This document shows, piece after piece, positions 20,535-24,787 of a stretch of DNA of 64,000 nt. The notes below the pieces were generated by a model. That model saw only the letters and a list, made by a program, of their open reading frames with translations. It did not search any database and was not told where the DNA came from. The first letter of the stretch is position 1; each line of letters opens with the position of its first letter. Position numbers and translations under genes: made by a program. Origin of the DNA: Streptomyces sp. NBC_01233 (GTDB lineage Bacteria > Actinomycetota > Actinomycetes > Streptomycetales > Streptomycetaceae); contig NZ_CP108514.1 of the NCBI RefSeq assembly GCF_035989305.1, forward strand, positions 3,720,501-3,784,500, in the 5' to 3' direction.

Positions 20535-21803
20535 TTACCGGGTGCCGCGCAGGCGGCGCCACGGGGTGAAGGTGAACACCGCGCCGCCGAGCAGGATCAC
20601 GGTGCCGGCGACCAGGGCCAGGGCCTTGATGCCGCCCTCGTCCTCGGCGCCGGTCTCGGCGAGGCCGCCCGAGGTGGTGCTGCCGGTGGTGCTGGTCGAG
20701 GAGCCGGAGCCGCCCGCCTGGGCGGTGGTGTCCAGCTCCAGCGAGACGCCGCTGCTGGCCGCCTTGCAGGGCACGTTGATCGGCGTGGCGCCCGGGGCCA
20801 TCGTGACGTCGATCGTCAGCTGGTCCGGGCTCAGCGTCACCTTGCCGGTCTTCCCGGGCTTGTAGGTGCCGGTCATGTCGCTGAGGCTGACCGGGGCCTT
20901 GTCCGGGATCGGGTCCGCGTTGGCCGGGCCGGAGACCTTGACCGTGCCGCTGTCGGCCCCGCCCAGCTTCACGTTCATCGAGGGCTTGAGGGCTCCCGCG
21001 GGCAGGGCCATGGGCGCGGCCATCGCGCCCTTCGCGGTCTTGACCGTCAGGTCGTAGCTGCCGCCGTTCTTCTTCGCGTTGATCGTGACCGGGGTCTTGA
21101 TGCCGCCGGGGACGACCGGGCCGCAGTCGAAGGCCACCTCGACCGGCTTGCCCGGGAAGTCGGTCTGGCCGCCGCCTCCCGCTGTGGTCCCGCCATCGGC
21201 CCCGCCGTTGGCGGCGCCACCGTTCGTGGCCCCGCCGTTGGTCGCCCCGCCGCTGGTGCCGGCCGACACGTCGATGGTGGCCCCGCCCTTGACCTCACCG
21301 GTCGGCGCGCACTTGGTGACGAACGTGCCGAAGGAGAAGGTGACGGCGACGTCGTACTTGCCGGGGGTCAGGGTGACCTTGCCGGCCTTGGTGAGCTTCA
21401 GCTTGCCCTTCATGGTGGACATGACCATGGGGGCCTTCTTGGGGATCGGCGGGTTCTTCTTCTCCCCGACGACCTTCAGCTCGCCCGCCCCGCCGCCACC
21501 CACGGTGATCCAGCCGGTGGGCTGGACCGCGTCCTTCGGGATGTCCATCAGGTCTGTGTTGTTCGAGGCCGGTTTGACGGTCTCCCAGGCCACGTCCACC
21601 TCGTCGCCCACCTTGGCCGTGGCCGGGGCGGTGATCTTGGCGGTGGTCTCGCCCTCCACCGGGTCCCCGCCACCGGCCGGCGGCACGCATTTGACCTTGA
21701 ACGTGGCCTCGGCGGCCTGGGCGGGAGAAGCCGTGATGGCGATGCCCGCGCCGCCGAGCAGCAGCGCGACCACGGCCGCGCTCACCCTCCGTTGGGTCTT
21801 CAC
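20535..21803 (-). CDS. Sortase-anchored surface protein (LAETG), two-domain
   Basis: 422 residues. Signal peptide (about 1-31, ending ASPAQA). Two related beta-rich domains (about 32-180 and 215-355), each with a paired-Cys pattern, separated by a Gly/Thr/Asn-rich linker of repeated GGATN units. C-terminal sorting signal LAETG, hydrophobic helix and RRLRGTR tail. LAxTG signals are recognised by class E sortases in Streptomyces (family knowledge). The domains resemble the single domain of the operon's first gene. The GTG start overlaps the stop of the preceding gene. Function beyond wall anchoring is unknown. Confidence 0.8.
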   Translation of the reverse strand: MKTQRRVSAAVVALLLGGAGIAITASPAQAAEATFKVKCVPPAGGGDPVEGETTAKITAPATAKVGDEVDVAWETVKPASNNTDLMDIPKDAVQPTGWITVGGGGAGELKVVGEKKNPPIPKKAPMVMSTMKGKLKLTKAGKVTLTPGKYDVAVTFSFGTFVTKCAPTGEVKGGATIDVSAGTSGGATNGGATNGGAANGGADGGTTAGGGGQTDFPGKPVEVAFDCGPVVPGGIKTPVTINAKKNGGSYDLTVKTAKGAMAAPMALPAGALKPSMNVKLGGADSGTVKVSGPANADPIPDKAPVSLSDMTGTYKPGKTGKVTLSPDQLTIDVTMAPGATPINVPCKAASSGVSLELDTTAQAGGSGSSTSTTGSTTSGGLAETGAEDEGGIKALALVAGTVILLGGAVFTFTPWRRLRGTR

Positions 21804-22942
21804 AATGGTCCCTTCGTCGTCGAACGGTTCTCAGACGGTGCGGACGTCTGTGGTGCTGTCTCCGGCGCGCTGTCCGGGGTGAACCACGGCAGGACCGCCG
21901 TGGTGGTCGAAGGGGGCTCCACCGGCTGCGCGGAGCGGGCCGTCGCGGCCGGGCGCAGGGCGGGCAGCCGGGGCAGCCGGGCCGTCACGGCCGATGCCGC
22001 TTCCGCGGGCCGGGCCCCCCGGTGGCGGCCGGCCGCGGGCACGGCGCGCGGCCGGACCTTGTCGACGACGGCCATGCCGATGCGGAAGACCGCGGCCGGG
22101 ATCACGAGCAGGAGCAGGCCCCAGAAGAGCAGCACCCCGTACGGACGGTCCACGCCCCAGGGCTGGCTGGCCACGACGGTCTCGCCGTACTTGAGGGAGA
22201 TCGTGTAATCGCCGTGGGCGCCTGCGGTGAGGGCGACGTCGAGTGCGATCTCCGCCTTGCCGCCCGGCGGGATGGTGCCCTTCCACCGGACCTCCTCCCA
22301 CAGCGGGGCGAACACCCCGTGGGCGGTGCCGAGCTGGAAGACCGGGTCCTTGACCGGGGCCGAGCCGAGATTGCCGACGGTGACCTTGAACTTCCGGCTC
22401 GGCGGGGCGCCGAACCAGGTCAACACCCCGTCCTCGCCCTCCAGCCGGACCCCGGTGAGCATCGCGAGGCGGGCCGTCCCGGATTCGGCGGGCAGTTCGG
22501 CCACCGGGTGGTCGGTGATCTTCAGGGGGGCCGCGACGGTGGACTGGTCGCCGTTGACGGAGGTGACGTTGACGACGCAGGGGCAGGGCTTGGGCGGCGC
22601 GACCACGGCCAGCTGGGCGGCGAAGCGTCCGTCGTCGGCGACGGAGACGGCGGCGCCGTCGGCGTTGGCGCAGCTGTTGGTGCCGCCGATCATGTTCTGC
22701 CCGCAGACCAGCAGCATCACCAGCGTCTTGGCCCGCCAGCCGGTGCCGGTGACGGTGATCTCGGTGCCCTTGGCGGCCTCCTGGAGCGAGAGGGCGACGG
22801 TGGGCTTGCCCTCGTCGGCCGCGGCCGGGGCCGCGGGGAACAGCGCGAGGGCGCACACCGCCAGCCCCGCCAGCCCCGCCAGGAGGAACCGGACCGTGGG
22901 GCCGGCCTTGCCGCGGACCTTGCCGCCGACCATGGCGCTCAC
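21800..22942 (-). CDS. Secreted membrane-anchored Ig-like protein
   Basis: 380 residues. Signal peptide (about 10-35), a domain with VTGTGWRAKTLVMLLVCGQ and PCPCVVNVTS that recalls neocarzinostatin-like Ig folds, then a second strand-rich domain (FKVTVGNLGSAPVKDPVFQL), a membrane helix (YGVLLFWGLLLLVIPAAVF) and a basic then Pro/Thr-rich cytoplasmic tail. GTG 22942 overlaps the upstream stop (GTGA) and the stop overlaps the next start, so translation is coupled both ways. The family is not firmly recognised. Confidence 0.75.
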   Translation of the reverse strand: MSAMVGGKVRGKAGPTVRFLLAGLAGLAVCALALFPAAPAAADEGKPTVALSLQEAAKGTEITVTGTGWRAKTLVMLLVCGQNMIGGTNSCANADGAAVSVADDGRFAAQLAVVAPPKPCPCVVNVTSVNGDQSTVAAPLKITDHPVAELPAESGTARLAMLTGVRLEGEDGVLTWFGAPPSRKFKVTVGNLGSAPVKDPVFQLGTAHGVFAPLWEEVRWKGTIPPGGKAEIALDVALTAGAHGDYTISLKYGETVVASQPWGVDRPYGVLLFWGLLLLVIPAAVFRIGMAVVDKVRPRAVPAAGRHRGARPAEAASAVTARLPRLPALRPAATARSAQPVEPPSTTTAVLPWFTPDSAPETAPQTSAPSENRSTTKGPL

Positions 22943-23979
22943 CTGGACGCTCCCGTCAGTTCGTGTTCCGGTGCAGGGGTCGGGTCGGGCCGCACGGAGG
23001 TCCCTCCGGTCTCCTCGCCGCCGGGCGGGTCCTGCCGGGTGCGCCGGCCCCGTACGAGGAACAGCGCGGCCAGCGTGGACCCGCCGAGGCCGAGCAGGCC
23101 GAGGCCCGTCCAGCCGGCGGCCCGCCACGGCACGAACGAGGCGGCCGCGCTCCCCTCGGCCCGGGCGCCGCCGGGGGCGGTTACGGTGACGCTCACGCGG
23201 ACCCGGTCGAGCACCGGGGCCCCGGGCCAGGGTTCGGTCAGCTCGACCCGCTGGCCCGGGAGCAGTTCGACGGGCAGGGCCCGGGCGCCACGGCCCGGCA
23301 CCTCGCCGAAGAGGCCCTCGGCGCGCAGGGACAGCTCGGGGGCGAGGGCGACGTTGCCGCGGTTGACCAGGGTGTACGCCACGACCGCGGCCGCGCCCCG
23401 GCCCCGTACGGCGACGTCCTCGACGGTGAGGGCGGCCAGGGCGGGGCCGCCGACCCGCAGGTGGACCCGTACGCCCACCTCCCGGCCGGCCTCGGTGGCG
23501 ACCACGGCGGCGGGGTGGTCGCCGGTCGGGGACGAGGGCGGCACGGTGACGGTGAAGGGGACCACCGCGCGGGTGTGGGGCGGGATCTTCACGGTGGCCC
23601 CGGCGCCGAAGGTGATCCAGGCGCCGGCACCGGTGGACCCGGCGGCGGAGCGCACCGCGAAGGCCCCGTCGGCGGTGTTGTAGGCGTCGGCCCCGCGCAG
23701 GGTGACGGTGTGCTCCTGGTCGGTGGTGTTGGCCAGGGCGAGGCGGTCCTCCAGCACGGTGCCGGCGGTGCCCGCCATGTAGAAGTACGGGCGCGTGGAG
23801 TACGGGCGGGCGCCGCCGGTGCGGGGGACGGCCTGACCGGCGGCGGGTTCGGCGGTCCAGCCCGGTTCGTCGGCGGCCGCGCCGTACGCGGGCTGAGCGG
23901 GACCCGAGTACAGCGCGGTGGCGGCGAGCAGGATCAGGCCGGCGCGCTGGAGGCGGTGGGGGGCGTGGAGCACGGGCAT
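22939..23979 (-). CDS. WxL-interacting (DUF916-like) membrane protein
   Basis: 346 residues. Signal peptide (about 1-33), then a DUF916-like domain with FYMAGTAGTVLEDRLALANTT and VPFTVTVPPSSPTGDHPAAVV, a second beta domain and one C-terminal membrane helix (GLGLLGLGGSTLAALFLV) with an Arg-rich stop. In Firmicutes, DUF916 proteins sit beside WxL surface proteins and help tether them to peptidoglycan. No WxL domain is evident here; the sortase-signal proteins of the same operon could take that place (inference). ATG 23979 lies 17 bp after the previous stop. Confidence 0.75.
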   Translation of the reverse strand: MPVLHAPHRLQRAGLILLAATALYSGPAQPAYGAAADEPGWTAEPAAGQAVPRTGGARPYSTRPYFYMAGTAGTVLEDRLALANTTDQEHTVTLRGADAYNTADGAFAVRSAAGSTGAGAWITFGAGATVKIPPHTRAVVPFTVTVPPSSPTGDHPAAVVATEAGREVGVRVHLRVGGPALAALTVEDVAVRGRGAAAVVAYTLVNRGNVALAPELSLRAEGLFGEVPGRGARALPVELLPGQRVELTEPWPGAPVLDRVRVSVTVTAPGGARAEGSAAASFVPWRAAGWTGLGLLGLGGSTLAALFLVRGRRTRQDPPGGEETGGTSVRPDPTPAPEHELTGASR

Positions 23980-23996
23980 GGCCGGGGGCGCTCCGT

Positions 23997-24674
23997 TCAG
24001 GACCGGGCCCGCCGGCCGCGCCGGGTCAGCCAGAGCACGCCGGCGACGCCGGAGAGCAGCACGGTGGCGCCGAGGGTGCCGAGGGCGAGGGCGGAGTCGG
24101 TGGGCCCGGTCTGCGGGAGGGTGTCCTCGCCCGAGCCGCCGCCGGACTGGGCGGTGGCGCCGCCGGCGGCCGTGACGTCGAGCTCCAGGGACGGGCCGGG
24201 GCTGTTGCCCGGGGTGCAGGTGGTCGTGGTGCCCATCGCCTTGATGGTGAGCACGCCGGCGGTGAAGGTGACCTTGCCGCTCTTCTTGGGCGTGTAGGTG
24301 CCCGAGAGGTCCGTGATCTTGATGGGTGTGTCGGCGGGCGCGGCCTCGGGGTTGGGCGGGCCGGAGACCGGTACGGACACCTTCTCGGCGCCGTCGACGA
24401 GGATGACGGCGCTGGGGCTCATCGCGCCCTTGCCCAGTTCGATGGGGCTGGACGAGACGCCCTTCTGGAAGGACATCGTCAGCTTGTACGCCTCGCCGTC
24501 CTTGACGGCCTTGATGTCGATGGGCGAGATCGCCGACTTGTCCCCGATCGGGGTCTTGCAGTCGTACGCCACGTCGACGACGGCGGCGTGGGCTGCGGGG
24601 GCGGCCAGCAGGACCGCCGATCCGGCCAGCGCGGAGGCCAGCGCGAGCGCGGTGGAGCGTTTGCGGTCGGACAC
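23997..24674 (-). CDS. Sortase-anchored surface protein (LPQTG)
   Basis: 225 residues. Signal peptide (about 1-31, ending AAHA), one beta-rich domain with DCKTPIGDKSAISPIDI, GAMSPSAVILVDGA and LSGTYTPKKSGKVTFTAG, which is repeated twice in the last gene of the operon. Sorting signal LPQTG, hydrophobic helix and RRGRRARS tail. GTG 24674 with GGGGA upstream is preferred over the ATG 24 bases earlier. First gene of the four-gene operon. Confidence 0.8.
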   Translation of the reverse strand: MSDRKRSTALALASALAGSAVLLAAPAAHAAVVDVAYDCKTPIGDKSAISPIDIKAVKDGEAYKLTMSFQKGVSSSPIELGKGAMSPSAVILVDGAEKVSVPVSGPPNPEAAPADTPIKITDLSGTYTPKKSGKVTFTAGVLTIKAMGTTTTCTPGNSPGPSLELDVTAAGGATAQSGGGSGEDTLPQTGPTDSALALGTLGATVLLSGVAGVLWLTRRGRRARS

Positions 24675-24787
24675 CTTCGTCTTCCCCTCGGGCCACAAAT
24701 AGCTGACGACACATCAGATTGGTGGCTCAAGGTACGCCCGGGGTCTTACGGAGGGAAGACAAAGGACAGCCCCGGATTGACCGTTCG

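Follow-up and report, generated by a model that had tools for sequence, protein, structure and literature searches.

The four genes described here, on the minus strand of a 64,000-nucleotide stretch of Streptomyces sp. NBC_01233 (the window), probably form an operon for a single cell-envelope complex that arose from WxL-WxLIP modules by descent or recombination; the probability of this reading is put at roughly 0.6. Gene order, domains, sorting signals, synteny and the joint absence of the second and fourth genes are read directly from sequence, and from these we infer a physical complex, coupled anchoring of its parts and signalling through the third product. WxL systems are mainly known from Firmicutes, which supply more than 91% of WxL sequences (PMC9772566), and are linked to gut commensals; the operon would be a widespread Streptomyces relative. 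The word Streptomyces is absent from the text of PMC1534035 and PMC9772566, and no open-access title or abstract was found that describes such an operon (WxL or DUF916 in Streptomyces or actinobacteria, with sortase).

The order g1-g2-g3-g4 and the spacing of the genes in the window indicate one operon, framed, as the preliminary description had proposed, by an LPxTG-type and an LAxTG-type protein. g1 (23997..24674, minus strand) encodes 225 aa with a signal-like N-terminus, one domain and an LPQTG sorting signal, and matches TIGR01167 over its cut-off; g2 (22939..23979, minus) encodes a WxLIP homologue of 346 aa with a DUF916-like domain, a second Ig-like domain and a C-terminal membrane helix; g3 (21800..22942, minus) encodes 380 aa with a neocarzinostatin-fold domain, an Ig-like domain, a membrane helix and a cytoplasmic tail; and g4 (20535..21803, minus) encodes 422 aa with two copies of the g1 domain, a Gly/Thr-rich linker and an LAETG sorting signal. 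The domain common to the first and last genes, the two different sorting signals and the tight junctions were all claimed beforehand and all hold, the junctions being a 17 bp gap between g1 and g2 and a 4-bp GTGA overlap at both g2/g3 and g3/g4. The start of g1, previously placed at TTG 24698, is less likely there than at GTG 24674, as the latter is preceded by a GGGGAAGA stretch which on our own reading is a possible ribosome-binding site. Hydropathy gives a C-terminal hydrophobic segment in all four products and hydrophobic N-termini in g1, g3 and g4, with the N-terminus of g2 under the threshold used. On one side the operon is flanked by hutI and hutF (histidine utilisation; NCBIfam equivalogs over cut-off) and on the other by a convergent POT transporter gene (PF00854).

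Relatives of g1, g2 and g4 were searched for in 101 Streptomyces genomes, and g1 was found in 77, g2-like genes in 75 and g4 in 78, the last count including cross-hits to g1. A further 119 genomes of the order were sampled, and the 72 in which g1 was present are all Streptomyces. Two sets of loci, overlapping by 8, were then compared. Set A comprises the loci of 76 other g1-bearing genomes, 6 near a contig end and 70 whole (L107 was assigned by hand), and set B is the best 80 of 485 related stretches from a g3-selected scan of named genomes, including 70 whole loci; by title, 79 of these best 80 are Streptomyces and one is Actinobacteria bacterium OV450. S. griseus and S. lavendulae are among the species listed by the scan. 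This neighbourhood survey found the genes to co-occur widely: all four stand at one hut-POT locus in 58/70 whole loci of set A and in 70/70 of set B (g3-selected, from the best 80 of 485). The other 12 whole loci of set A are seven with g1 and g3 only, two without g4, two without g2 and one, in genome G012, with g1 elsewhere. The 4-bp overlap is kept at g2/g3 in 67/67 (set A) and 77/77 (set B) loci, and at g3/g4 in 63/64 and 80/80.

The sorting signals are equally stable. The LPQTG motif of g1 (24105..24119, minus) is LPxTG in 146/146 loci examined (74/74 in set A and 72/72 in set B, with 8 loci common to both), and the LAETG motif of g4 (20649..20663, minus) is LAxTG in 142/142 uncut loci (63/63 and 79/79), with no switch between the two in any locus examined. 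The g1 motifs of set A are LPQTG (47), LPKTG (18), LPRTG (8) and LPETG (1), so the third position drifts and the second is fixed. Both C-termini consist of the pentapeptide, a hydrophobic stretch and a basic tail, in the window and across loci. In this they resemble class E sortase substrates (the chaplins ChpA-C and ScLPMO10D) and Actinoplanes CwpA/CwpB, which have a C-terminal LAxTG or LPxTG, hydrophobic stretch and basic tail; their ectodomains differ from those of g1 and g4, judging by descriptions only, and what sets g1-g4 apart is that the LPxTG/LAxTG split lies within one operon and is invariant in the loci examined.

The genome has 11 sortase matches: among the 10 sortases scanned, 4 score above cut-off with the class E model and 5 with the class F model; one class F match is below cut-off and one match is unclassified. 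It is plausible that housekeeping sortases among these act on g1 and g4. Two sortases are not required, since SrtE1 of S. coelicolor cuts both LPETG and LAETG with a preference of only about 2-fold (PMC5148588) and LPVTG seems to be the signal used by Actinoplanes SrtE (PMC13251363), and it is as a hypothesis that two might serve the one operon. The invariant split offers a natural way to test whether sorting by the Streptomyces sortase classes depends on the second residue, and it bears on what class F sortases do, the physiological roles of which are termed unknown in PMC13251363. Three of the class E sortase genes of this genome lie within 3 kb (C1:4665772-4668626; L054, L056 and L057).

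By profile comparison, g2 is a WxLIP relative. Its match to PF06030 has an E-value of 1.2e-4, under the Pfam cut-off; both of its Ig-like domains match the L035 WxLIP, a paralogue over that cut-off, at 99.9% and 100% (hhalign); and EfmWxLIP1 (9i25_C) is found at 4e-5 by a profile that combines 22 g2-type with 8 paralogous rows. The membrane helix of g2 spans residues 291-309. The middle of the cassette had been described as a DUF916-like and an Ig-like protein, both membrane-anchored; both helices and the DUF916 similarity of g2 were recovered, and the second protein, g3, is corrected to a neocarzinostatin-fold membrane protein. The first domain of g3 conforms to the neocarzinostatin-family sequence profile and to the apoprotein fold, and compared with the neocarzinostatin, macromomycin and C-1027 apoproteins, whose family binds enediyne chromophores, g3 adds a membrane anchor, an Ig-like domain and a cytoplasmic tail. 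The domain of g1 and g4 is a beta domain unknown to Pfam: no Pfam match to it, DUF6801 (PF20611) included, was found in 46 g4 proteins, and hhalign against DUF6801 gave 1.5% for g1, 20.1% for the first copy in g4 (g4N) and 29.3% for the second (g4C).

The relation to WxL systems emerges from two further WxLIP genes of the genome (L034 and L035), whose matches exceed the Pfam cut-off. In both cases the preceding gene encodes a protein with a signal-like start and a weak C-terminal WxL match (PF13731, E 6.1e-4 and 2.2e-4, below cut-off). The WxL protein of L136, also a WxLIP neighbour, finds 58 proteins, 12 with PF13731 and four named 'WxL domain-containing'; its C-terminal domain is common to 54 of the 58, and a profile of it matches the two paralogous proteins at their C-termini (100% and 99%). 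In a local comparison of 15 domain profiles, 11 of 105 pairs reached at least 30%, and due to the E-values of two-profile comparisons being uncalibrated, reliance was placed on the contrast with the other pairs. g4N matched the N-terminal domain of the L034 WxL protein at 99.9% and the neocarzinostatin domain of g3 matched the middle domain of the same protein at 95.6%; the N-terminal domain of the L035 WxL protein had no match of at least 30% to g1 or g4. These matches suggest that the modules of a WxL protein have been spread over g1, g3 and g4 and that its wall anchor has been exchanged for sortase signals. No PF13731 match was found in any of the four products, and the actinobacterial WxL profile gave 0.1-0.6% with g1, g4N, g4C, g2H, g3A and g3B and 21.5% with g2P; for the paralogous WxL domains the same profile gave 99-100%. 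As the WxL domain is the known partner of WxLIP (PMC10599100; title of PDB 9i25) and g1-g4 have none, g2 may bind WxL proteins made elsewhere.

The operon thus encodes the WxLIP of the WxL/Csc definition, with a DUF916-type domain, a second Ig-like domain and a membrane helix, and lacks the two or more WxL-domain proteins by which such clusters are defined (PMC10599100). Like the Firmicutes clusters (CscA being the WxLIP, CscB and CscC the WxL proteins and CscD the small LPxTG protein), it combines a WxLIP with co-encoded, putatively exported proteins, one of them with an LPxTG signal. In such clusters all products are exported through a signal peptide; here hydrophobic N-termini were seen in g1, g3 and g4. 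Unlike them, it is without a WxL domain, has two sorted proteins with different signals and adds the neocarzinostatin-fold membrane protein; g1 and g4 also share a folded domain and are longer, at 225 and 422 aa, than CscD (90-140 aa). The sortase part alone is not the novelty, because Firmicutes csc clusters often already include one small LPxTG protein (PMC1534035, PMC9772566). The nearest relatives found are actinobacterial WxL/WxLIP pairs (L034, L035 and relatives in L122-L141), which have WxLIP homologues as the operon does, and in which the L034 WxL protein and its close relatives carry a g4-like N-terminal and a g3-like middle domain. In these pairs a single secreted protein with a C-terminal WxL domain contains the modules that the operon distributes among g1, g3 and g4, each with a sortase or membrane anchor. 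This supports a WxL system rebuilt on sortase anchors, with parts that are probably actinobacterial. The earlier proposal of a Firmicutes WxL complex rebuilt with sortase-anchored parts therefore gains from the WxLIP, the wide co-occurrence and the WxL-protein homology, and loses its Firmicutes origin, which is unnecessary given these relatives.

Several observations concern the actinobacterial pairs themselves. A WxLIP gene lies in one frame with the GTPase Era at L034:7564-9498 (in this genome) and L135:4380-6866, and no Era was found in the long WxLIP frame of L131; a fusion of DUF916 to Era in certain Streptomyces is mentioned by an Era review (PMC10582724). Relatives of the L034 WxL protein (many of P0254-P0285; P0270 is 57% identical) are publicly named 'beta-xylosidase', a name that is probably misleading, as their listed Pfam domains include no glycosidase. 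L136:3634-5933 is a DUF6801-WxL protein adjoining a WxLIP, and the N-terminal domain of WxL proteins seems to be exchangeable between systems.

Upstream of g1 lies a conserved element, GGCGTACCTTGA...ATCTGATGTGTCGTCAG (24703..24738, minus), in which a -10-like TACCTT is followed by an imperfect palindrome, and which is the probable promoter/operator of the operon. The window contains a match to this element and 100 shuffles contained none. The palindrome, TCTGA[T/C/A]N3-5CGTCAG, precedes g1 in 73/74 loci of set A and 72/72 of set B, and GGCGTACCTTGA does so in 59/74 and 66/72; the conserved block extends slightly past 24703-24738. TACCTT could be a -10 box, with the palindrome just after it in an operator-like position.

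Among the 70 whole loci of set A, g2 and g4 are absent together from seven, g4 alone from two and g2 alone from two (Fisher p 1e-6 for joint absence, a value that ignores relatedness), and in five of the seven reduced genomes (G009, G014, G026, G093 and G099) no WxLIP match was listed with g2 as query. A tree of g1 and g3 was built from 69 loci, with 23/66 inner branches well supported. On the best tree, parsimony puts the seven g1+g3-only loci in five places, with 8 changes for the combined state; the loci lacking g4 only form one clade, and those lacking g2 only are two loci. Where pairs of lineages differ in g2, the difference in g4 is parallel in 3.5 of 4 and opposite in none; the sign test gives p 0.125-0.25, the independent events being few and the pairs too few for significance. 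By parsimony, joint absence of g2 and g4 appears in about five lineages. The LPWF motif in the g3 cytoplasmic tail (21881..21892, minus) is kept in 147/147 loci outside the reduced class (67/67 in set A and 80/80 in set B, 8 loci being counted in both) and is missing in five of the seven loci without g2 and g4 (L049, L079 and L120, which are one clade, L051 and L102), being retained in L068 and L107. The motif is thus lost only where both genes are gone, which ties the inside end of g3 to their presence and, with the conserved upstream DNA, suggests that the four genes are one functional unit.

These same losses bear on whether the products are instead co-expressed but independent surface proteins, with promoter, timing and domain ancestry in common and no complex. 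Persistence of g1 and g3 without the other two in 7/70 whole loci of set A would fit independence, as would G012, where g1 lies about 2 Mb from g2-g4 and its joint transcription with them is therefore dispensable; we regard it as unlikely, as g2 and g4 are jointly missing in several lineages, the g3 tail motif is missing only there, and the overlaps joining g2, g3 and g4 are near-universal. The relocated g1 of G012 still has the upstream palindrome, and in this rearrangement (L038, L039) g1 has stayed with the hut genes and upstream element and g2-g4 with POT.

In the preferred reading of one complex, a promoter just upstream of g1 would drive all four genes, and g2 would be a membrane-held WxLIP scaffold. 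g4, and probably g1, would replace the WxL protein and keep the domain with which a WxL protein of this genome begins, the wall-binding WxL module having given way to covalent anchoring by sortase, through LAxTG on g4 and LPxTG on g1. Such an exchange would allow the role of the WxL domain to be tested by comparison. g3 would show its neocarzinostatin-fold domain outside the membrane and the conserved LPWF inside, and this motif is a handle on a possible cytoplasmic partner. As to the role of the complex, our guess is that it recognises a ligand of the envelope or the environment and links membrane to wall structurally. A more specific version, which is speculative and doubtful as a whole, is a two-anchor envelope receptor: class E sortase, acting on LAxTG, and class F sortase, acting on LPxTG, would fix the related ectodomains of g4 and g1 at separate places in the wall, and the WxLIP, having given up the WxL domain for the g1/g4 domain as its partner, would hold both to the membrane. 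A small ligand bound by the neocarzinostatin-type domain of g3 would be reported inside via LPWF, a motif that decays in the absence of g2 and g4.

The flanking genes allow a nutritional reading, in which the complex would capture substrate for the adjacent POT peptide transporter or for histidine/allantoate genes, as Firmicutes csc clusters have been proposed to act in carbon acquisition (PMC1534035). The position between hutI/hutF and POT is widely kept (POT convergent in 69/76 loci of set A and 75/80 of set B; hut genes upstream, within the flank, in 56/76 and 63/80), but no enzyme or solute-binding domain was found in g1-g4, POT is convergent and outside the operon, and the synteny may be plain genome conservation, which makes this reading improbable. 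Developmental coat proteins that alter the hyphal surface, like chaplins or CwpA/CwpB, are suggested by the role of SrtE substrates in S. coelicolor and A. missouriensis, where they control aerial growth or exploration (PMC5148588, PMC13251363), and by the neocarzinostatin-like sorted protein CwpG of Actinoplanes, and are likewise improbable given that g1 and g4 have no Pfam chaplin match and that deletion of cwpG left Actinoplanes mycelial growth unchanged (PMC13251363).

Sites resembling the upstream palindrome also occur elsewhere in the genome. TCTGAYNNNNCGTCAG (window 24703-24718) has 25 genome matches against 1 for its reversed control, including G000:C1:2956361-2956392 (L262) and sites at 4.00-4.07 Mb (L266-L275). 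Several of the matches precede genes resembling acyl-CoA or steroid catabolism (the pathway was named by eye), and one precedes a cytochrome P450 gene, with TACCTT arranged as it is upstream of g1.
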